Shown here: one piece after another, positions 13,611-24,114 of the stretch
How positions within the stretch are numbered: the first letter of the stretch is position 1
Layout of the letters: each line of letters begins with the position of its first letter
Source of the DNA: Pelagibacterales bacterium SAG-MED19
GTDB taxonomy: Bacteria > Pseudomonadota > Alphaproteobacteria > Pelagibacterales > Pelagibacteraceae
Length of the DNA: 34,052 nt
Direction of reading: 5' to 3'
NCBI GenBank assembly: GCA_014654035.1
Contig: JACWDQ010000012.1
Coordinates: 1 to 34,052, forward strand
The notes under the pieces: generated by a model
Told to the model about the DNA's origin: nothing
Database searches by the model: none
The model's input: the letters and a program-made list of their open reading frames with translations, nothing else
Translations under genes and position numbers: made by a program

Positions 13611-14441
13611 ATGAATGAGAAAAAACCAGAACTAAGTGCCGCAATGAAAAGTAAGGTAGAGCCTAAGGTTTTTAAAAAAAATCCAATAATTGGAACAAAA
13701 TTCACCATTGCTATCTCTAGCGCAAAGGGAGGTGTAGGAAAATCCACATTCGCAACAAATTTAGCACTAGCTCTAAAAAATTTAGGATGTAAAGTTGGAT
13801 TATTGGATGCTGATATTTATGGTCCATCAATTCCAAAAATGTTCAATATAAATGAAAAACCAAAAAGTGATGGTCAAAAATTAGAACCTATAACAAAATA
13901 TGATATTCAATGTATGTCAATAGGTTTCTTGACAGATCAACAAACGCCTATGATTTGGCGTGGTCCAATGGTGACAAGTGCAATTAAAACTTTTACTCAA
14001 AAAGTTAATTGGAAAAATTTAGACTTTATAATTGTTGATATGCCACCAGGAACTGGGGATACTCAATTAACGTTTTCACAAGAAATTAAAATGGATGGTG
14101 CAATTATAGTTTCTACTCCTCAAGAAGTAGCTTTGCTTGATGTCAAAAGAGGTATCAAGATGTTTGATAAATTAGGAGTTAAAATTTTAGGTTTAGTAGA
14201 TAACATGAGTTTTTTCACTGGAGATGATGGTAAAAAATATAAAATTTTTGGAGAGGGTGGTGTTAAAAAAACTGCTGAAGATTTTCAAAAAGAATTTTTA
14301 GGAGAAATTCCAATAAGTCCTGAGGTTGGTAAATGTGGAGATAACGGAAAACCAATTGTAGAGGAAAATCCAGATCATGAAATTTCAAAAATATATGCAG
14401 ATTTTGCTAATAAAATTAAATCTCTGTACTTTAAAAATTAG
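13611..14441 (+). CDS. mrp: Mrp/ApbC-type P-loop ATPase (Fe-S carrier family), short form
   Basis: The 276-residue protein has the MinD/Mrp ATPase core: deviant Walker A AISSAKGGVGKST (about residues 34-46, Lys39 and Lys44), LLDADIYGPSIPKM, WRGPMVTSAIKTF and VDMPPGTGDTQLT. These identify Mrp/ApbC rather than MinD or ParA. Family members carry Fe-S clusters during cofactor assembly in the cytoplasm. Two usual parts are absent: the N-terminal MIP18/DUF59 domain (only about 30 residues precede the ATPase) and the CxxC pair after VDNMS, replaced here by FFTGDDGKKYKIFGEGG. The gene stands alone, divergent from hflK and convergent with the next gene, overlapping it by 4 bases. Confidence 0.88.
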   Translation: MNEKKPELSAAMKSKVEPKVFKKNPIIGTKFTIAISSAKGGVGKSTFATNLALALKNLGCKVGLLDADIYGPSIPKMFNINEKPKSDGQKLEPITKYDIQCMSIGFLTDQQTPMIWRGPMVTSAIKTFTQKVNWKNLDFIIVDMPPGTGDTQLTFSQEIKMDGAIIVSTPQEVALLDVKRGIKMFDKLGVKILGLVDNMSFFTGDDGKKYKIFGEGGVKKTAEDFQKEFLGEIPISPEVGKCGDNGKPIVEENPDHEISKIYADFANKIKSLYFKN

Positions 14442-15064
14442 ATATTAAAATTGAAATACTTTAAAAGAATTTTATTAAGCTTTTGTTTAATTAAAAAAAG
14501 AAGATAAGAGTTTTTTTCAATTTTACAAACTCCTCTTATATTTGTTGTCATTAAATTATATATTAATGTTATTCTATTAGATACACCATCGGACTCATAA
14601 CTATGAAAACTATTTTGAGTTCTTGAAAAAAAAAGGGCTCTATTTTTTTTCCATTCTATATTTTTTTTTTCTTTTTTGTCCATGCTAAAAATATTTGTCC
14701 CAAAATTTTTATCAGGACTTAAATAAACAACCCCACTCAAGAGTTTATTATGGGTATCATTATGAATAGGAAAAGAGTGATCTTTACCAGCAATTACAAT
14801 ATGAAAATCAGAATATTCATATAGTTTTTCTTTCTCTGGGGAATACTTGCGAAGCAGATCAATAGCTTTGGAATGGTAATTGTTATGTAATTTTTTAATA
14901 GTTTCTTTTTTGATGCATGAAGATTCTATAGTTCCATTTTTAAATATCCTATTATGGTATACTTTTTTTTCTTTACTATTTACATCATTTAATTCTAATG
15001 AACACAATTCATTAAAATCATGTTCATTCATAAAATTATCAATTACCTCATATTTAAAAAACAT
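14438..15064 (-). CDS. Putative 2-oxoglutarate/Fe(II)-dependent oxygenase
   Basis: I do not recognise a named family. The 208-residue protein has the double-stranded beta-helix oxygenase signature: His101-x-Asp103 in SFPIHNDTHNKLLSGVVYL, distal His154 in QNSFHSYESDG and Arg164 ten residues on in SNRITLIYNL. This is the HxD...H...R pattern for Fe(II) and 2-oxoglutarate binding. Hydroxylation of a small molecule, sugar, lipid or protein side chain is therefore likely; the substrate is unknown. A basic, hydrophobic C-terminus (about 185-208) might touch the membrane. The gene follows the FkbM methyltransferase gene by 15 bases, suggesting shared function. Its composition is even more AT- and Lys/Asn-rich than the core genes. 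Confidence 0.7.
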   Translation of the reverse strand: MFFKYEVIDNFMNEHDFNELCSLELNDVNSKEKKVYHNRIFKNGTIESSCIKKETIKKLHNNYHSKAIDLLRKYSPEKEKLYEYSDFHIVIAGKDHSFPIHNDTHNKLLSGVVYLSPDKNFGTNIFSMDKKEKKNIEWKKNRALFFSRTQNSFHSYESDGVSNRITLIYNLMTTNIRGVCKIEKNSYLLFLIKQKLNKILLKYFNFNI

Positions 15065-15079
15065 ATATTGAAGCCTAGC

Positions 15080-15940
15080 CTATCTTATAAATACATAATT
15101 GAAACTATTTAAATGATTTTTTGATTTTAATAATTTTTTATTCTGTTTTTTATGTAAAATTTTAAAATCAAATGATTCCATGATTTTAAGTGTTCTTTCA
15201 TATTGATCTTTAAAATTTTCATTAATTTCTATAGAAAGACTAAGCAAGTTTTCGTTATTTAAATATTTATCAGCACCCTCTAAAATAAGGTGCTCTATAC
15301 CATCTACATCAATTTTAATATAATTTGGAACATCTAATATTTTTTTTTCTAAAATAGAATTTATAGATCTTCCGACTAGACAATACCTATTTGAAGACAA
15401 AATTTTTTTTCCTTCAAAATCAAATTCTTCTCCAAAAGTATTTAATGCAGCACCTTCACTGAATTGACTTTCATTCATGTTTAAAAATTTATTATCTTTA
15501 TTTGATAGTGGACTTGAAAAAATTTTAATCCTATCTTGTAAATTATTAATAGAAATGTTTCTGCTTAAACACCTAAGGTTGCTAGTAGATGGTTCAAAAC
15601 TTACTATATTGCAGTTTTTATACTTTGTTGCGGCGTAGATTGAAAAGAGACCAATATTTGCTCCTATATCCCAAAATATATTTTCTTCATTTTCTCTGAA
15701 TTTATTAATCCATTCGATTGTTTCAGGCTCTTTAGTAAAAATTGTGTTTACTCGATATTCTGTAATTTGGTTTGGTACAAAGAAATTTATCTTTTTTCCT
15801 AAAATATCTATAGCTTTGTAAGAGTCTTTTTCAAAAAACTCTTTAATCCAGTATAAAAAATTTTTTTTAAATAAGAGTTTAAAAAAATTATCAAAAAGTT
15901 TTAGAATTAAATAACAAATATATGAGAAATTCTTAAACAT
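15080..15940 (-). CDS. FkbM-family SAM-dependent methyltransferase
   Basis: The 286-residue protein has the class I SAM-binding motif FWDIGANIGLFSIYAATKY near residues 88-106, the acidic strand-2 motif IVSFEPSTSNL, and YIKIDVDGIEHLILEGA near residues 213-229. Together these are characteristic of FkbM methyltransferases, which usually O-methylate sugars, polyketides or other glycans. The N-terminal 40 residues are basic and aromatic and may associate with membrane, but they show no clear signal. The gene lies 21 bases after thyX and 15 before the oxygenase gene. FkbM genes often occur in surface-polysaccharide clusters, in keeping with the glycosyltransferases beyond ssrA. The substrate is unknown. 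Confidence 0.88.
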   Translation of the reverse strand: MFKNFSYICYLILKLFDNFFKLLFKKNFLYWIKEFFEKDSYKAIDILGKKINFFVPNQITEYRVNTIFTKEPETIEWINKFRENEENIFWDIGANIGLFSIYAATKYKNCNIVSFEPSTSNLRCLSRNISINNLQDRIKIFSSPLSNKDNKFLNMNESQFSEGAALNTFGEEFDFEGKKILSSNRYCLVGRSINSILEKKILDVPNYIKIDVDGIEHLILEGADKYLNNENLLSLSIEINENFKDQYERTLKIMESFDFKILHKKQNKKLLKSKNHLNSFNYVFIR

Positions 15941-16909: not shown

Positions 16910-16917
16910 GATTTTTA

Positions 16918-16947
16918 TTGAATCTCTTTTAATTGTTTTTATATTAA
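16918..16947 (+). promoter_or_regulatory. Candidate promoter for ssrA
   Basis: TTGAAT (16918-16923), an 18-base spacer and TATTAA (16942-16947) lie between the divergent thyX start (16909) and the first paired bases of the tmRNA acceptor piece, placing the transcript start near 16953. The region is short and AT-rich, so the match is only suggestive; the fit with the RNA's expected 5' end is the main support. Confidence 0.35.
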
Positions 16948-17031
16948 TACTGTTGGCTTGCCAACTACGACGATAAACGAATTTCGTAATAACCATTGCG
17001 GACGTGGGGGCAGTACCCACCACCTCCACCA

Positions 17032-17043
17032 TTTACAACTTAT
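17032..17043 (+). other. tmRNA internal transcribed spacer
   Basis: These 12 bases separate the encoded CCA of the acceptor piece from the first G of the coding piece. In permuted tmRNA precursors this spacer is removed, with tRNA-type processing at both sides, leaving two RNAs. It is very short, closing the acceptor stem as a small loop. Confidence 0.85.
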
Positions 17044-17125
17044 GGGGGTGAAATAGATTCGACGGGTGACTAAAAGTTATTCTTTCGTTCGGAATTGTTC
17101 CACCGTAACGGGCTAAATTATAATT

Positions 17126-17155
17126 GCTAACGAAAGTTACGCACTTGCTGCCTAA
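17126..17155 (+). other. tmRNA tag reading frame (ANESYALAA, stop)
   Basis: GCT AAC GAA AGT TAC GCA CTT GCT GCC TAA encodes ANESYALAA, ending in the LAA/ALAA degron recognised by ClpXP-type proteases. The resume codon GCT follows TAATT, similar in position to other tmRNAs. The TAA stop opens an 8-bp perfect stem (17153-17160 with 17164-17171, loop TTT). A second hairpin GGGGC/GCCCC (17186-17190 and 17206-17210) closes the coding piece. Confidence 0.9.
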
Positions 17156-17266
17156 TTAACTTTGTTAATTAAGTAGACGGGGTTTGGGGCACCTGGCAAC
17201 AGAACGCCCCTATAAAAAAAATAATCATTACATCTCAATACTTTTTCCATTTCAAATTGAAAAAAT

Positions 17267-17292: not shown

Positions 17293-18000
17293 TTACGAAA
17301 TTAAAAAATATTTAAATATACAGAATAATGCAATAACACCATCTTTCGCTCTAATTTTTTTTCCATCTTTATAAGTTCTTGCATAATATGAAATACCTGT
17401 TTCTGTGAATCTATAATTTTTTTTAGCTAACTTAATTGTAACCTCTGGTTCGAATCCAAATCTTTTTTCAGATAAATTGATACTTTGAATTACATTTTTC
17501 TTAAAACATTTTAATCCTGTTTCCATGTCATTTATCTTAAGTCCAGTTAAGAGATTTGTTAATGCTGTAAGAATAAAATTTGCAATTCTATTAGCAATAT
17601 ATAAATTTATGTTAGAATTTTTCGTTCCTTTAGAAAACCTATTTCCATAAACGACATCTGCATTATCATTTTCCATTACTTTAATTAACTTTTTGTGATC
17701 TGATGGTTTATATTCTAAATCAGCATCTTGAATAATTACAATTTGACCTTTTATGTGTTTTATTGCGCTCTGAATACAAGCTCCTTTTCCCATATTTTTT
17801 TTATGATAAATTACCTTATCTACTGAATTTTCAATTTTATTCTTTAGTAGTTTTTTTGTTCCATCTGTTGAAAAATCATCAACAATTATAATTTGCTTAT
17901 CTTTAATTCTATTTTTTTTTACTCTTTTTACTACTTTTTCTAAAAACTTAATTTCATTATAACAAGGAATTATTATTGTAATTTTATTTTTAGATTTCAT
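17293..18000 (-). CDS. GT2-family glycosyltransferase, dolichyl-phosphate-mannose-synthase-like
   Basis: The 235-residue protein is a GT-A fold family 2 transferase: ITIIIPCYNE at the N-terminus, IIIVDDFSTDGT near residues 37-48, HKKNMGKGACIQSAI near 66-80 and the metal-binding Asp92-Ala-Asp94 in IIQDADLEY. GNRF and ETGLKCFKK further on resemble polyprenyl-phosphate sugar synthases (DPM1-like). It has no C-terminal membrane helices, so it is the soluble type. Such enzymes load a sugar onto a lipid carrier for use by a GT-C transferase, which fits the large membrane protein two genes upstream. The start overlaps the radical SAM stop by one base (TAATG). The sugar and acceptor cannot be told. 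Confidence 0.88.
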   Translation of the reverse strand: MKSKNKITIIIPCYNEIKFLEKVVKRVKKNRIKDKQIIIVDDFSTDGTKKLLKNKIENSVDKVIYHKKNMGKGACIQSAIKHIKGQIVIIQDADLEYKPSDHKKLIKVMENDNADVVYGNRFSKGTKNSNINLYIANRIANFILTALTNLLTGLKINDMETGLKCFKKNVIQSINLSEKRFGFEPEVTIKLAKKNYRFTETGISYYARTYKDGKKIRAKDGVIALFCIFKYFLIS

Positions 18001-19316
18001 TATATAAAACTAAAAAAGTGTTTAGCTACCCATCTAAACCTAAAATAATATCTAGAATAAGCTTTACTTAGAAAAAATCTAATTTTTTTTGCGTCAAATA
18101 ATTCATGACGATAAACAAGATTATATTGATCAAATGATTCATATTTCTTTACTGATATCTTATCTTCAAACTTTTTAAAAATTGGTGTGCCGGGATATGG
18201 TGTCCAAACACTAAATTGAGCAAAAGAAGTATTCAAAGATTTTGCATACTCTATTGTGTTATTAATTGTTTTTTCTGTATCAGTTGGAAAACCAATTATA
18301 AACATAGCTGAAACCATAATCTTATTCTGTTCAAGTTCGCGTATTTTTGTTAATTGAGCATCTTTTGAAACAGTAAACCTATCCGCATTACTTAATACCT
18401 CCGCATTTGCACTTTCAACACCAACTTTTGTACCTTTTAATCCACATCTTAAAAGTTCTTTTATTAAATTTGTATCAAGTATCCTTAAGTGGGTTTCTAT
18501 AACAAACTTTATATTTAAGTTCCTCTCATATAGCTCTTTACAGAATTCAAGAGTATGTTTTTTATTTATGGAAAAAACAGGGTCTCTGAAAATGAACATG
18601 TTAATTCCAAATTTTTTTTTCCAGTATTCCATTTCATCAACTATTTTTTTTGGATCTCTTTGACGAACTTTTCTTCCTTGTTGAAGAGGATAGACACAAT
18701 AAGTTTGACAAGAGTAAGGACAACCGCGAGTACCTAAAATAGGAATACTTTTATTTCTTCCAAATAAATTATTAACAGTGTCAAAGTTTTTAATTACTTT
18801 ATCCCAGGGTGGATAAGGAAGGTCATCAACAGTGAAATCGTGGTTAAATTTAATAATTTCTTTATTAAGGTCTTCTTCAAATTTTTTATTTCCTAAAAAG
18901 TAAAACTCTGACTCTCCACTAATAACTGAGGCACCTGCCTCATAATATTTTTTTGGAATATTTGTTGCAAAAGGTCCAATTACAAAGATTTTTTTACTAT
19001 TTGATTTTAAAAGTTTGATTATTTCAATTTCGGTTTCGCAACAAACTATTGATGAGACAATTATAAATAAGTCATAACTCATAAAATCATCTGGGAGCTC
19101 TTCTTTATAGATAACTTGGTGACCCTTTTTTTCTAAAACAGCATAAGTATAAACAGCATGCATGGGTGGCCAGTGACTATTTTTTTTAATAAGATATTTT
19201 AATGCATTTGGTACTAAAGTATCACCAAAATCATTACCTGTTCCATATCCGCCACTTGTATCTTTGCTAATCCTATGACTTACTTTTCTTTGGGGATCCA
19301 ACAATAAAATTTTCAT
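18000..19316 (-). CDS. Radical SAM protein with B12-binding-like N-terminal domain, CX3CX3C cluster motif
   Basis: The 438-residue protein has a Rossmann-like N-terminal region resembling B12-binding domains (about 1-150: MKILLLDPQ, MHAVYTYAVLEKKGHQV, LFIIVSSIV) and a radical SAM TIM barrel (about 190-400). The cluster motif is Cys199-Pro-Tyr-Ser-Cys203-Gln-Thr-Tyr-Cys207, i.e. CX3CX3C, not the canonical CX3CX2C; I checked it codon by codon. GVESANAEVL and FIIGFPTDTEKTI are typical of the B12-type class (HpnP, BchE and related methyl or ring transferases). The B12-contact motif DxHxxG is not evident. It probably modifies a lipid, sugar or peptide. It lies between two glycosylation-type genes, one base from the GT2 gene. 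Confidence 0.85.
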   Translation of the reverse strand: MKILLLDPQRKVSHRISKDTSGGYGTGNDFGDTLVPNALKYLIKKNSHWPPMHAVYTYAVLEKKGHQVIYKEELPDDFMSYDLFIIVSSIVCCETEIEIIKLLKSNSKKIFVIGPFATNIPKKYYEAGASVISGESEFYFLGNKKFEEDLNKEIIKFNHDFTVDDLPYPPWDKVIKNFDTVNNLFGRNKSIPILGTRGCPYSCQTYCVYPLQQGRKVRQRDPKKIVDEMEYWKKKFGINMFIFRDPVFSINKKHTLEFCKELYERNLNIKFVIETHLRILDTNLIKELLRCGLKGTKVGVESANAEVLSNADRFTVSKDAQLTKIRELEQNKIMVSAMFIIGFPTDTEKTINNTIEYAKSLNTSFAQFSVWTPYPGTPIFKKFEDKISVKKYESFDQYNLVYRHELFDAKKIRFFLSKAYSRYYFRFRWVAKHFFSFI

Positions 19317-19363
19317 AATTTAAAACATGATTAATTTAATATTTAGATAATATCTGTTTTATC

Positions 19364-21142
19364 TTATTTAACTGGTTCACATTTATTTTTTTCTAAAAAA
19401 TTTAATAACACAAATTTCTCATAATTATAACCTGGAATTTGTAAATATTCATTGTAGGATGCAGCCCAATCAACACAGCTAAAATTTTTTCCCTTAATAT
19501 TATCATTTAATGGTACAGATTTTAGTTGGGAAAAAAATATTAATTGAAAAAAAATTGATATTACAAAAACTAATAATAATAAATAAAGCGACATAAAATT
19601 GGGTAATCTTTTCAGATAGTAGGTTGTAATTGAAAATATATTCTTATGATATTTTGTAAATGTAAAAGAAATCAAAAAAATTAAAGGAAGAAGATAAGGT
19701 CTATTATTATATTGGAAAAGTAATAAAGCTAAATAAGCGATAATGGTTGTCAAAACCAAAACACATATTAAGAAAAACAATTTGTTAATTTTAAGAGAAA
19801 TTTTTAAATACAAGGATAATAATATAATAAAAAAAATCGAGAAAAATAAAATTATATTATCTTTTTGAAAACTATTCCTATCAAATAAATCTTGTTTATT
19901 ACTTAAAAATGAATTTAAATTTTTAAAACTTGTCTCACCTAAACCTAGTATATACGATTGATATATCATTACTAAAATTATTACAAAAATAAAAGAATTG
20001 CTTAATGAAATCGACTTAATTTCTTTTTTTAATTTAAGCAAAGAGTAAAATATTAAAACTGAAATTCCAGAAAAAGTTCTCGACCCGAAAGTTCCAGTTC
20101 CTTCCCACCAAATAAAAAAAGCTGATTGCATAAGAAGTTGACCAAGAAAAGCAAATATTACACTTACACATATTAAATTTTTTGTATTGAAAAATTTTTT
20201 GTTAAATAAGATTTTCTTACATAAGTAAAAAAAAGAAAAAAGTAAAACAGGATGATAGAATATCATTCCATGTAATGGAGAAAATAAAATTTCAAAAGTT
20301 TTTAAATTTTTAAAATCAAGACTTGAAAATGGGTGATCTGTAATATTGTAAGGACTTAAAAGAATATTACCATTTATAATCAGATGATATACCGACATCA
20401 TAGCAACTGCTATGAAAGGTATAATTGCTAAAATAAATAAAATTTTTAAAATATACTTATAATTTGCTGAAAATATCATCTTCTTTTTTGGTATTGATGA
20501 AAGAAAAATTACAACTAAACATAAACAAGTAAAAATATTTGTAGCTTTTACTAAAATTAAAAAATAATTGATAATTCCTATCATGACTGGTGCTACGTAA
20601 TGAGAATTTTTAAATTTTTCATGATTAATTTCTGATATAGTTAATGATATTAAAATTAATAATATTGATAAACTTTCTGTTGAAAATTTGTTAAAATAGT
20701 ATCCTGCTGGGGTAAATAAAAAAAAAGAAAAAAAAATTAATAAAAAAAATTTATTATCTTTTAAATTCTTTTTTAAAATAAATATTAAAAGTGAAAAATT
20801 TATTAAACTTAAAATAGATGATAATGCACTTGCCCGTATTGAATTATGATGAAATGGTTCAAAAAATTTTTCGATAAATATCTCTATTCCAAATAACTTG
20901 TTAATTATTGCGCCTATAAGACCAACCCCATATTGCCATTGAACCAAAGGTTTTCCATTAATACTTTTTGAATATTCGTCCCATAAACTTAAGTCAAATT
21001 CAGTAAAATATTCTGCCCATTTGGAATATTCTCCAAAATCTGCACCTCGCCCAGATGTAATTATTATCAATAAAGAAAAGAAAATTAATGTAAAATACTC
21101 AAATTTGAAATTTGTGATTTTTCTTTTTAATAAATTTTTCAT
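19364..21142 (-). CDS. Large polytopic membrane protein, probable GT-C-type glycosyltransferase
   Basis: The 592-residue protein has roughly eleven to thirteen hydrophobic segments and a soluble C-terminus of about 50 residues with two cysteines (FSCVDWAASYNEYLQ, NFLEKNKCEPVK). After the first membrane segment comes an acidic stretch GRGADFGEYSKWAEYF (Asp35, Glu38), where GT-C transferases such as PMT/ArnT types carry catalytic acids. I infer, but cannot prove, that it transfers a sugar from a polyprenyl-phosphate donor in the periplasm; the neighbouring GT2 could make that donor. An O-antigen-polymerase or unrelated transporter role is possible. It precedes the radical SAM gene by 47 bases and follows the lipoprotein by 34. 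Confidence 0.6.
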   Translation of the reverse strand: MKNLLKRKITNFKFEYFTLIFFSLLIIITSGRGADFGEYSKWAEYFTEFDLSLWDEYSKSINGKPLVQWQYGVGLIGAIINKLFGIEIFIEKFFEPFHHNSIRASALSSILSLINFSLLIFILKKNLKDNKFFLLIFFSFFLFTPAGYYFNKFSTESLSILLILISLTISEINHEKFKNSHYVAPVMIGIINYFLILVKATNIFTCLCLVVIFLSSIPKKKMIFSANYKYILKILFILAIIPFIAVAMMSVYHLIINGNILLSPYNITDHPFSSLDFKNLKTFEILFSPLHGMIFYHPVLLFSFFYLCKKILFNKKFFNTKNLICVSVIFAFLGQLLMQSAFFIWWEGTGTFGSRTFSGISVLIFYSLLKLKKEIKSISLSNSFIFVIILVMIYQSYILGLGETSFKNLNSFLSNKQDLFDRNSFQKDNIILFFSIFFIILLSLYLKISLKINKLFFLICVLVLTTIIAYLALLLFQYNNRPYLLPLIFLISFTFTKYHKNIFSITTYYLKRLPNFMSLYLLLLVFVISIFFQLIFFSQLKSVPLNDNIKGKNFSCVDWAASYNEYLQIPGYNYEKFVLLNFLEKNKCEPVK

Positions 21143-21176
21143 TTAAAATATTTAAAACAAGATAATAATTAAGTTA

Positions 21177-21359
21177 TTACTTTAAGTCTAAATCTCCACA
21201 TTGAGTATCAGTAAATATACAAGTGCTATAATGATGGATTGTTTTAACATCTTTGATAATACCACGGCCTGTTCCCTCAACTGTTCCTGTCACTGTATTA
21301 CAGGCGCTAAGAAAATTTAATAACATTAAAAAACCATAGAGTAATACTTTACGAATCAA
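21177..21359 (-). CDS. Entericidin-like small lipoprotein
   Basis: The 60-residue protein begins MIRKVLLYGFLMLLNFLSAC, a typical lipoprotein signal peptide with lipobox LSAC and lipidated Cys20. The following NTVTGTVEGTGRGIIKDV resembles entericidin EcnA/EcnB (CNTV-x-G start and Gly-rich helix). The start codon is TTG (21359-21357); it supplies the basic n-region that the internal ATG at residue 12 would lack, so I prefer it. The C-terminal part, with two further cysteines, is not entericidin-like. It stands 94 bases after ppdK. Its role is unknown. Confidence 0.7.
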   Translation of the reverse strand: MIRKVLLYGFLMLLNFLSACNTVTGTVEGTGRGIIKDVKTIHHYSTCIFTDTQCGDLDLK

Positions 21360-21453: not shown

Positions 21454-24114
21454 TTACTTCTTAAGTAGTTCCGCTTGAGCAGCAGCTAATCTAGCGATAG
21501 GAACCCGATACGGTGAACAGGATACGTAATGTAAGCCTGCATTAGAGCAAAAATTAATACTTTTTGGATCACCCCCGTGTTCACCACAAATTCCTAATTT
21601 AATTTTTTTATTTTGTTTTTTTCCTTTAAAAACAGCTATTTTAATCAAGTCTTCTACTCCCTCATCTATGGAAACAAATGGATCTACATTAAAAATTCTA
21701 TTATCAATGTAATCATTTAGAAATTTTCCACTATCATCTCGACTAATTCCAAAAGTAGTTTGCGTTAAATCATTTGTACCAAAGCTAAAAAATTCAGCAT
21801 GTTTTGCAATATCCTTTGCTTTAATTGCGGCTCTAGGCAACTCAATCATTGTTCCAACTAAAAATTTTATTTTTGTTTTATTTTCTTTTTGAACTTTTTT
21901 TGCTACACTAATTACAAGATCTTTCATTATTTTTATCTCTGCCTCAGTTGAAACCAATGGTATCATTATTTCAGGAAAAGCTGATTTTTGTTTATTTTTT
22001 TTTAAATCAGATAAAGCCTCAAATATAGCTCTGCATTGCATTTCGTAAATCTCTGGAAAGGAGATGCCTAATCTACAGCCTCTATGGCCAAGCATTGGAT
22101 TTTGTTCATGAAGTTCATCAATTCTTGATTTTACTTCTTTAATATCAGCGCCAACAACTTTTGCTACTTCATTTATTTCTTTTTCTGATCTTGGTAAAAA
22201 TTCATGCAATGGTGGATCAAGCAGTCTTACAGTTACTGGAAGTCCATGCATTATTTTAAAAATTTCAATAAAGTCTTTTTTTTGATGAGGTAAAAGTTTT
22301 TCTAAAGCTTTGGCTCTATCATCTTGTGTTTTGGATAAAATCATTTCTCTTACAGATAAAATTCTTTCCTCATCAAAAAACATATGTTCTGTTCTACAAA
22401 GGCCTATTCCCTCAGCGCCAAAATCTCTTGCAGTTTTTGTATCAAGAGGAGTTTCAGAATTAGTTCTTACTCTCAATTTTCTTATTTTATCAGCCCAACT
22501 CATCAATTTTGAAAAATCACCAGAAATTTCTGGTTTTACAGTTGGAACATCTCCTAAAATAATTCTTCCAGTAGAACCATCAATAGTAATTATATCACCC
22601 TCCTTGACTTCAAAATTTGATGTTTTGAAAAGTTTTTGCTCATAGTTAATGTCAATTTCACTAGAACCAGAAACACATGGTCTACCCATCCCTCTTGCAA
22701 CGACTGCTGCATGACTTGTCATTCCACCTCTTGCCGTTAAGATTCCTTTTGCTGCATGCATACCTTGAATATCTTCTGGAGATGTTTCAACTCTAACTAA
22801 AATTGTGTCTTGCATCATATCATTTAGTCTCTCAGCTTCTTCCGAGGTAAAAACTACTTTCCCACTGCAAGCACCAGGAGATGCTGGTAATCCATTTGCA
22901 ATTACTTCGATTGATGTTTTTTCATCTAATGTTGGATGTAATAAGGTATCAAGTGAGTTTGGATCTACTCTTAAAACTGCCTCATTTTTTGAAATTAACT
23001 TTTCTTTAACCATGTCTACTGCTATCTTTACAGCTGACTTTGATGTTCTTTTGCCAGAACGAGTTTGTAAAATCCAAAGTTTATTATTTTCAACAGTAAA
23101 CTCAACATCTTGCATATCTTTATAATGTTTTTCCAATTTTTTTAAAATTTTATATAATTCAACGTAAACTTTTGGCATACACTCTTCCATGGATGCTTCT
23201 TTTACTTTAGCTTCCTTTTTAGCTTTTTTAGTTATGTATTGTGGTGTTCTAGTACCAGCAACTACATCCTCTCCTTGAGCATTAATTAAATATTCACCAT
23301 AAATATCATTAGATCCATTTGAAGGATTTCTGGTAAAAACAACTCCAGTCGCACAATCATTGCCCATATTTCCAAAAACCATTGACTGAACGTTTACAGC
23401 TGTTCCCCACTCTGCGGGAATTTGATTTAATTTTCTATAAATTTTTGCTCGATTACTCTCCCATGATAAAAACACTGCACTAATTGCACCTAACAATTGT
23501 TCATAAACATCTTGAGGAAAATCTTTATTCGTTTTTTCTTTAATAGTTTTTTTAAAGTCTTTTATTAAGCCATTCCAGTCATTTTCATCTAGATCTGTAT
23601 CTAATAGTACACCTTTAGTTAATTTATAATTTTCAATTAATTCCTCAAAATGATAGCTCTCAACACCCATAACTACATTTCCATACATTTGTATAAACCT
23701 CCTATAACTATCCTTGGCAAATCTTTCATTAGAAGTTTTATTTGTTAGAGCAATTACGGTTTTATCATTTAAACCAAGATTTAAAATTGTATCCATCATA
23801 CCAGGCATAGAAACTCTTGCACCAGACCTTACAGATAATAAAAGAGGATTTTTTAAGTCCCCAAATTTTTTTGATACATCTTTTTCAATTACTTTTAATT
23901 CTTTTTTAATTTGGCTAATTAATTTCATGTTTAATTTTTTTTTGTTTTTATAAAAAATTTCACAAACTTTTGTTGTTATTGTAAAGCCCGGAGGTACTGG
24001 TAGGCCCATTCTTCCCATTTCAGACAAATTTGCTCCTTTGCCTCCTAAAGAATTTTTTGGACTTTTAATTTTTTTTGAGTCTTTTGACTTAAAGTTAAAA
24101 ATTAATCTATTCAT
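21454..24114 (-). CDS. ppdK: Pyruvate, phosphate dikinase
   Basis: PpdK interconverts pyruvate, ATP and phosphate with PEP, AMP and diphosphate. The 886 residues cover the N-terminal ATP-grasp domain (KNSLGGKGANLSEMGRMGLP; LLSVRSGARVSMPGMMDTI), the central swivelling domain with the catalytic His in GGMTSHAAVVARGMGRPCV, and the C-terminal PEP/pyruvate barrel ending in GICGEHGGDPKSI with the active-site Cys. The diphosphate-type length (about 880) separates it from PEP synthase PpsA (about 790). In a genome of this type it would link glycolytic and gluconeogenic flux. The start overlaps the glyS stop by 8 bases (minus strand). Confidence 0.97.
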   Translation of the reverse strand: MNRLIFNFKSKDSKKIKSPKNSLGGKGANLSEMGRMGLPVPPGFTITTKVCEIFYKNKKKLNMKLISQIKKELKVIEKDVSKKFGDLKNPLLLSVRSGARVSMPGMMDTILNLGLNDKTVIALTNKTSNERFAKDSYRRFIQMYGNVVMGVESYHFEELIENYKLTKGVLLDTDLDENDWNGLIKDFKKTIKEKTNKDFPQDVYEQLLGAISAVFLSWESNRAKIYRKLNQIPAEWGTAVNVQSMVFGNMGNDCATGVVFTRNPSNGSNDIYGEYLINAQGEDVVAGTRTPQYITKKAKKEAKVKEASMEECMPKVYVELYKILKKLEKHYKDMQDVEFTVENNKLWILQTRSGKRTSKSAVKIAVDMVKEKLISKNEAVLRVDPNSLDTLLHPTLDEKTSIEVIANGLPASPGACSGKVVFTSEEAERLNDMMQDTILVRVETSPEDIQGMHAAKGILTARGGMTSHAAVVARGMGRPCVSGSSEIDINYEQKLFKTSNFEVKEGDIITIDGSTGRIILGDVPTVKPEISGDFSKLMSWADKIRKLRVRTNSETPLDTKTARDFGAEGIGLCRTEHMFFDEERILSVREMILSKTQDDRAKALEKLLPHQKKDFIEIFKIMHGLPVTVRLLDPPLHEFLPRSEKEINEVAKVVGADIKEVKSRIDELHEQNPMLGHRGCRLGISFPEIYEMQCRAIFEALSDLKKNKQKSAFPEIMIPLVSTEAEIKIMKDLVISVAKKVQKENKTKIKFLVGTMIELPRAAIKAKDIAKHAEFFSFGTNDLTQTTFGISRDDSGKFLNDYIDNRIFNVDPFVSIDEGVEDLIKIAVFKGKKQNKKIKLGICGEHGGDPKSINFCSNAGLHYVSCSPYRVPIARLAAAQAELLKK

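Follow-up and report, generated by a model that had tools for sequence, protein, structure and literature searches.

In apramycin biosynthesis, AprD4 and AprD3 are described as a radical S-adenosylmethionine (SAM) sugar 1,2-diol dehydratase and an NADPH reductase, respectively (PMC5461906). A gene for an AprD4-like radical SAM enzyme lies in the stretch of 34,052 nucleotides from Pelagibacterales bacterium SAG-MED19 that is considered here as a whole (the window), which is contig 4 of an assembly of 50 contigs (1.01 Mb, 84% complete). It is the second of four minus-strand open reading frames (ORFs) that encode, in turn, a family 2 glycosyltransferase (GT2), the radical SAM protein, a 592-residue polytopic membrane protein and a 60-residue protein, with gaps of -1, 47 and 34 bases; this run between ssrA and ppdK had been pointed out in a first-pass annotation made from the sequence alone, and the ORF listing confirms it. 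The first three genes (17293-21142) are tentatively proposed, with somewhat less than even confidence, to form a cassette that produces a lipid-linked sugar in modified form.

Three further systems invite comparison. In the Arn pathway (ArnA-ArnB-ArnC-ArnD-ArnEF-ArnT) a GT2 loads a polyprenyl carrier, the sugar is edited, and a membrane enzyme transfers it. Gtr systems, which modify O-antigen, comprise GtrA, GtrB and an acceptor-specific Gtr; in the DprE1/DprE2 system a polyprenyl-phosphate pentose is oxidized and then reduced. The locus resembles Arn in the idea of carrier loading, editing and transfer, and one related locus has a uridine diphosphate (UDP)-glucuronate decarboxylase gene, but the four-gene run contains no ArnA-, ArnB-, ArnD- or ArnEF-like gene and its editor would be a radical SAM protein. 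A GtrB-like GT2, a variable membrane neighbour and GtrA in two related loci recall Gtr; the four-ORF run differs in having no GtrA and an extra radical SAM step, and no family member was found in viral contigs. The resemblance to DprE1/DprE2 lies in a DprE1 homologue (below the NCBIfam cut-off) beside the radical SAM gene of locus L067 and in a flavin adenine dinucleotide (FAD) protein of the same cluster in L082, whereas the four-gene run itself has no DprE gene. A search of open-licence PubMed Central, judged by titles and abstract openings, found no paper that describes AprD4-like enzymes in SAR11 or radical SAM enzymes that dehydrate lipid-linked sugars.

The AprD4-like radical SAM family

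The radical SAM protein (18000-19316, minus strand; 438 residues) belongs, as judged by sequence comparison and a predicted structure, to an AprD4-like family of which AprD4 is the closest solved relative. Its Pfam match, PF04055 (E 7.7e-14), covers the radical SAM core only, with no match to a B12-binding Pfam family, and its cluster motif GCPYSCQTYC has the spacing CX3CX3C instead of the common CX3CX2C. The best sequence match in the PDB is AprD4 (6fd2, E 1.6e-31; next 2.2e-6); a 32-row profile of relatives finds the same protein at E 7.1e-40, with the runner-up at 1.5e-10. A model predicted from 32 sequences (pLDDT 89.6) retrieves 6fd2 first in Foldseek (E 3.8e-26; second entry 8.6e-16), and in VIA it aligns with 6fd2 over 411 residues at Z 38.0, root-mean-square deviation 2.7 and 23% identity (second entry Z 26.1); a family that is missing from the VIA list is not taken as evidence. 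A tree built from 84 core segments places AprD4 as the sister of the marine family, with support 100/94. The window protein is present twice in the tree (L087), and the 83-residue fragment L074_8067_8318 and rows with fewer than 150 core residues or a late start were left out.

Some results tell against this affiliation. AprD4 forms a long branch in the tree, and its placement is flagged as unsure by the program. The NCBIfam model for AprD4 (NF033070) gives 129 bits against a cut-off of 500, and unrelated members of the radical SAM superfamily reach as much as 140 bits with it; in the phylum it matches 128 of 299 genomes, none above the cut-off. The model is therefore too unspecific to serve as evidence of membership, and because its cut-off is missed the protein is called AprD4-like and not AprD4. 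NifB is also reported to carry CX3CX3C (PMC9692996), so the motif alone is no proof.

A scan of genome contigs found relatives of the window protein at 34 loci, mostly in Pelagibacteraceae; the remainder are in SAR116 (L078, L079, and L080), a MarineAlpha6 bin, one record labelled Hydrogenophilales and one alphaproteobacterium. All 35 family proteins (34 loci and the window) contain both CX3CX3C and the stretch FRDPVFS, and the cobalamin motif DxHxxG is absent from all 35. The description "B12-type" given in the first-pass annotation is dropped on this ground and because AprD4 is nearest by both sequence and fold. CX3CX2C is the spacing in all 47 remaining rows of the comparison set and likewise in HpnJ, in BchE, and in a pair of proteins from a Citrobacter plasmid; the non-family row L029 also shows a CX3CX3C pattern, through an extra cysteine upstream of its CX3CX2C, and two rows of the comparison alignment show FRDETF, close to FRDPVFS.

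Near full-length relatives (E 4.3e-111 or lower; next best 3e-40) are present in seven of the 197 genomes of the taxonomic family, the window's own included, and any radical SAM match at E<=0.001 in 154 of them. The viral contigs searched yielded no relative; phage records gave three weak partial matches (two of them from one phage), and 98 plasmid records matched weakly, none at 60% identity or above. Host-recognition islands of pelagimyophages are reported to contain radical SAM cassettes (PMC7029224), which could not be tied to this family.

The marine family is thus like AprD4/AprD3 in its CX3CX3C motif, its FRDPVFS stretch, a fold shared over the full length (Z 38.0) and, in many relatives, a neighbouring reductase gene. 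It is unlike that pair in its 23% identity, its score below the NCBIfam cut-off, the organisms that carry it and the window's lack of an adjacent reductase, and its company is glycosyltransferase genes rather than aminoglycoside genes.

Two side observations concern individual sequences. In L074 (7001-8318) the radical SAM frame is broken into two overlapping ORFs of 367 and 83 residues, by a frameshift or a sequencing error, and on a Citrobacter plasmid (L154, 1186-3924) two adjacent CX3CX2C radical SAM genes lie beside GH3-type and N-acetyltransferase genes.

Genes that accompany the family

In the 34 loci, three kinds of gene recur at a distance of at most three genes from the one for the radical SAM enzyme: a short-chain dehydrogenase/reductase (SDR) in 21, a GT2 of the window's cluster in 12, and a polytopic protein (at least 380 residues with at least eight hydropathy-predicted helices) in 22. 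Counted by ORF, near (within three genes) versus far, SDRs number 21 of 196 versus 1 of 248, GT2s 13 of 196 versus 1 of 248, and polytopic proteins 23 of 196 versus 7 of 248; near and far counts share their loci, which also supplied the clusters behind the SDR and GT2 profiles, and not all of the loci are independent, several being close relatives (e.g., L051 and L053) and some (L058 and L084) being cut by contig ends, so that p-values from this comparison do not refer to independent events. The 286 background ORFs, from 18 similar regions, include no SDR, one GT2, and four polytopic proteins. The link that the first-pass annotation drew between GT2, radical SAM, and polytopic genes thus survives as an enrichment of the GT2 and the polytopic protein near the family; its fixed four-gene system does not, a relative of the 592-residue protein (E<=10) being present in only one of the 34 loci (L058).

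The GT2 of the window (17293-18000, minus strand; 235 residues) resembles polyprenyl-phosphate-sugar synthases of the DPMS/GtrB/AglJ kind in its Pfam, NCBIfam, PDB, and PHROG matches. It matches PF00535 (E 1.9e-32); its best PDB match is dolichol monophosphate mannose synthase (5mlz, E 9.5e-17), with ArnC-type structures also close, and its closest PHROG is the GtrB-like phrog_841 (E 4.8e-26). The NCBIfam scores for AglJ (116 bits, cut-off 325) and PpgS (86 bits, cut-off 370) both miss their cut-offs. The predicted acceptor is polyprenyl phosphate.

The 592-residue protein (19364-21142, minus strand) has few relatives: one in genome G092 at 35-38% identity and a fragment in G116. Among 397 genomes of the order only its own matched, and it has no Pfam match up to E 0.1 and no NCBIfam match. 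In L058, at a contig end and on the opposite strand, a 181-residue C-terminal piece of a protein of this type lies beside the GT2 and radical SAM genes. An AlphaFold2 model from a two-row alignment reached a pLDDT of 42.9 and was not used for structure search; a PDB profile search with four relatives gave a single meaningless match, and hhalign of the two-row profile against 21 neighbour entries (the polytopic proteins of other loci) gave a best probability of 4.7. Those polytopic neighbours mostly have no Pfam family; the exceptions are Glyco_transf_22 in L074 (E 4.2e-32), PMT_2 above its cut-off in L056, and DUF6311 in L075, and PMT_2 matches below the cut-off are found in L039, L040, and L041. 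By Pfam, then, a few of these neighbours count as GT-C types. Since a relative of the 592-residue protein occurs in only one related locus, the polytopic partner, if it is one, would differ between loci. An acidic stretch follows the first helix, also in the relative from G092; this and the genomic company permit the guess that the protein is a transferase of the glycosyltransferase C (GT-C) type.

The SDRs are of more than one type. A second type is matched strongly and over its full length (E 6e-46 or lower; next 4e-18) in three of the 197 genomes, all three among the seven with the radical SAM gene; one of them is the query's own genome, and the coincidence of the two others with the radical SAM gene has a chance probability of 7.8e-4. 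In eight of nine relatives fetched, the type-1 SDR adjoins a DUF3833-type gene or is one gene away from it, and in five loci (L051, L053, L054, L055, and L076) it has the radical SAM gene as a neighbour in this block. The radical SAM gene of L060 lies between an SDR gene and a hydrolase gene, a place at which the sister genome G007 has none. In L063 and L068 the SDR and radical SAM genes occur together at other sites, and three relatives per genus keep the SDR at the usual block; with completeness of 62% and 88%, these genomes may have a second SDR copy that is missing from view. The window's own genome encodes an SDR on another contig (G000:C48:28502-29248) that is 55% identical to the SDR of L035 and belongs to the common type 1. 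A pairing of SDR and radical SAM enzyme is likely, with adjacency to the common SDR the weaker part of the evidence.

A separate observation on the common SAR11 SDR is that in L049 (7994-8752 and neighbours) it shares a conserved block with DUF3833 and further genes and lies close to genes that we take to be glycine-cleavage-like.

Genes of carrier-linked sugar metabolism appear in several relatives. In L067 a DprE1 homologue (NF053785, 339.5 bits against a cut-off of 500; 4aut, E 4.9e-63) adjoins the radical SAM and SDR genes. A UDP-glucuronate decarboxylase (UDP-xylose synthase) is encoded beside the GT2 in L077 (2b69, E 3.8e-123; first match outside the group 1.2e-36), and L074 and L078 have proteins in its cluster. 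GtrA is found in L078 and L079, and L080 has a protein from the cluster of L079. The neighbours in relatives suggest deoxygenation within a lipid-linked-sugar pathway; GT2, DprE1, and GtrA suggest a substrate at the level of the carrier, and DprE1 and the decarboxylase suggest a pentose, neither of these two being found in the window's genome.

In L077 to L080, as a further observation, the SDR is replaced by a protein of 219-260 residues (cluster c15) that looks Rossmann-like by eye; a Pfam scan of the L077 member gave no match.

A proposed pathway and its alternatives

In the proposed cassette, the GT2 would, by analogy with its family, load a nucleotide-donated sugar onto polyprenyl phosphate. 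By analogy with AprD4, the radical SAM enzyme would then abstract a hydrogen from a sugar carbon, with expulsion of the neighbouring hydroxyl, to give a keto-deoxy sugar, and an NAD(P) reductase, perhaps the SDR at G000:C48:28502-29248, would reduce the ketone. A flippase, of which the run shows none, and a membrane transferase, for which the 592-residue protein is a possible candidate, could finally deliver this sugar to a glycan or lipid of the envelope. The whole would amount to an Arn- or Gtr-like pathway with an added radical dehydration-reduction step.

The wider proposal is that in SAR11 and SAR116 a CX3CX3C radical SAM dehydratase and an SDR edit a sugar, possibly a pentose, bound to polyprenyl phosphate, which swappable membrane transferases then place on the cell surface; it is possible but on balance doubtful. 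AprD4 is known from aminoglycoside biosynthesis, and AprD4-like chemistry would be unexpected in the very abundant SAR11. If correct, the proposal describes a deoxygenation route at the carrier level that is independent of the usual nucleotide-sugar 4,6-dehydratases. The marine family with its carrier-linked sugar genes, placed at a variable site in the window, offers a testable route to SAR11 surface sugars, and such sugars may bear on phage recognition.

Several findings weigh against the proposed cassette. In 22 of the 34 loci the three genes on either side of the radical SAM gene include no GT2, and in the window no SDR adjoins it. Among the matches listed, the type-1 SDR is found in about 142 of 197 genomes of the taxonomic family at 54% identity or more; because it is so common, its adjacency may reflect the site of insertion, which weakens the evidence for pairing. 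The window's genome, 84% complete, has no UDP-xylose synthase orthologue (best match 29%), so UDP-xylose is not claimed as its donor, and a search without a positive control found no DprE1 match there. The GT-C fold that the first-pass annotation suspected in the 592-residue protein stays putative.

The radical SAM enzyme and SDR might instead deoxygenate a nucleotide sugar or free metabolite, with GT2 and membrane genes lying close through shared glycan islands; the loci that have no nearby GT2 agree with this, as do L051, L053, and L060, in which the SDR is the sole labelled neighbour, and AprD4 itself acts on a soluble pseudodisaccharide (PMC5461906). Against a soluble substrate, a single GT2 cluster recurs near the family (the 13 of 196 versus 1 of 248 given above), a homologue of DprE1, an enzyme named for a decaprenylphosphoryl sugar, is present in L067, and GtrA is present in L078 and L079. 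A soluble substrate is judged unlikely, although it is the best of the alternatives.

The DUF3833 block raises the question of membrane lipids, since its genes presumably are lipid-related, the common SDR keeps its place there in eight of nine relatives, and the five loci named above have the radical SAM gene inserted next to that SDR. That the two enzymes work on membrane lipids is nevertheless distinctly unlikely: in L063 and L068 they occur together off the block, other loci have a different SDR, and the company of the GT2 would be left unexplained.

HpnJ acts on a lipid-linked sugar substrate. It is the second NCBIfam match of the window protein (118 bits), and its gene lies between hpnI and hpnK, which would fit an enzyme of the HpnJ or calditol-synthase type that contracts or rearranges the ring of a lipid-linked sugar without dehydrating it. 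The HpnJ checked, however, has CX3CX2C and no RDxxF stretch, and AprD4 is the best match in both sequence and fold, so that ring rearrangement is improbable.

Still more improbable is that the enzyme is an ordinary radical SAM methylase that depends on B12 and forms part of a surface-glycan island. The whole model, N-terminal domain included, does align with TsrM and OxsB at a VIA Z of about 24, and radical SAM proteins are common in the taxonomic family (the 154 genomes noted above), but DxHxxG is found in none of the 35 proteins and the nearest structure is AprD4, which is not known to bind cobalamin.

The small lipoprotein-like ORF (21177-21359, minus strand; 60 residues, TTG start, lipobox-like LSAC) has no Pfam match up to E 0.1 and occurs in seven of 81 genus genomes, the window's included. 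In the 11.6 to 19.5 kilobases fetched around the other six copies (one reaching a contig end), no relative of the radical SAM, GT2, or 592-residue protein was found, so it probably does not belong to the system. That the four genes are dedicated to glycosylating this lipoprotein, as the first-pass annotation had suggested, has a shared strand and short gaps in its favour and is the least credible reading of all, the other three genes being absent from the stretches fetched for six of six other occurrences.

The ppdK-ssrA interval and neighbouring genes

The run lies between two genes that mark the edges of a variable interval. One is ssrA (16937-17246, plus strand), a permuted transfer-messenger RNA found by ARAGORN and matched by Rfam RF01849 (226 bits, 16914-17214); the other is an ORF (21454-24114, minus strand) that we, like the first-pass annotation, take to be ppdK. 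For comparison of the site, thyX was matched in 61 of 81 genus genomes, and 18 regions were fetched from these. Twelve of them (L118, L119, L121, L122, L125-L131, and L134) contain ppdK and ssrA together, with no gene between them (L121 and L125), with one or two (e.g., L118, L119, and L126), or with more (L122 and L128); in the remaining six, different genes precede ssrA on its upstream side and the fetched stretch lacks ppdK. All 18 regions are without the radical SAM gene.

Two of the 34 family loci occupy the same neighbourhood. In L062 a GT2, a radical SAM gene, an SDR, and a different polytopic protein are found between ppdK and ssrA; L084 is cut by a contig end, and its radical SAM gene has ssrA and thyX as neighbours. 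The contents of the interval therefore vary, and cassettes of this kind occupy it in the window and L062 and perhaps in L084. The comparison of relatives recommended by the first-pass annotation shows a GT2 and radical SAM gene that recur together in L062, within contents that vary and with another polytopic protein. Attachment-type repeats were sought between ssrA and ppdK; only AT-rich repeats were present, and these were judged to be due to chance.

Other genes of this part of the window show variation of their own. Between thyX and a gene for a 276-residue protein, the window (14438-15940) has an FkbM methyltransferase gene and a weakly matching 2-oxoglutarate-oxygenase-like gene; in several relatives (L120, L121, and L122) thyX directly meets the 276-residue gene, so the pair looks like a second inserted cassette. 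The listed thyX ORF begins within ssrA (16937-17032). The thyX match starts at residue 1 in 19 listed genomes, the window's own included, and at residues 21-41 in most others, where the leader is detached or interrupted by stops; the true thyX start may therefore be a later codon. Multi-gene inserts also lie between ssrA and thyX in L125 (7190-15270) and L135 (12607-15592), so that both flanks of ssrA are variable.

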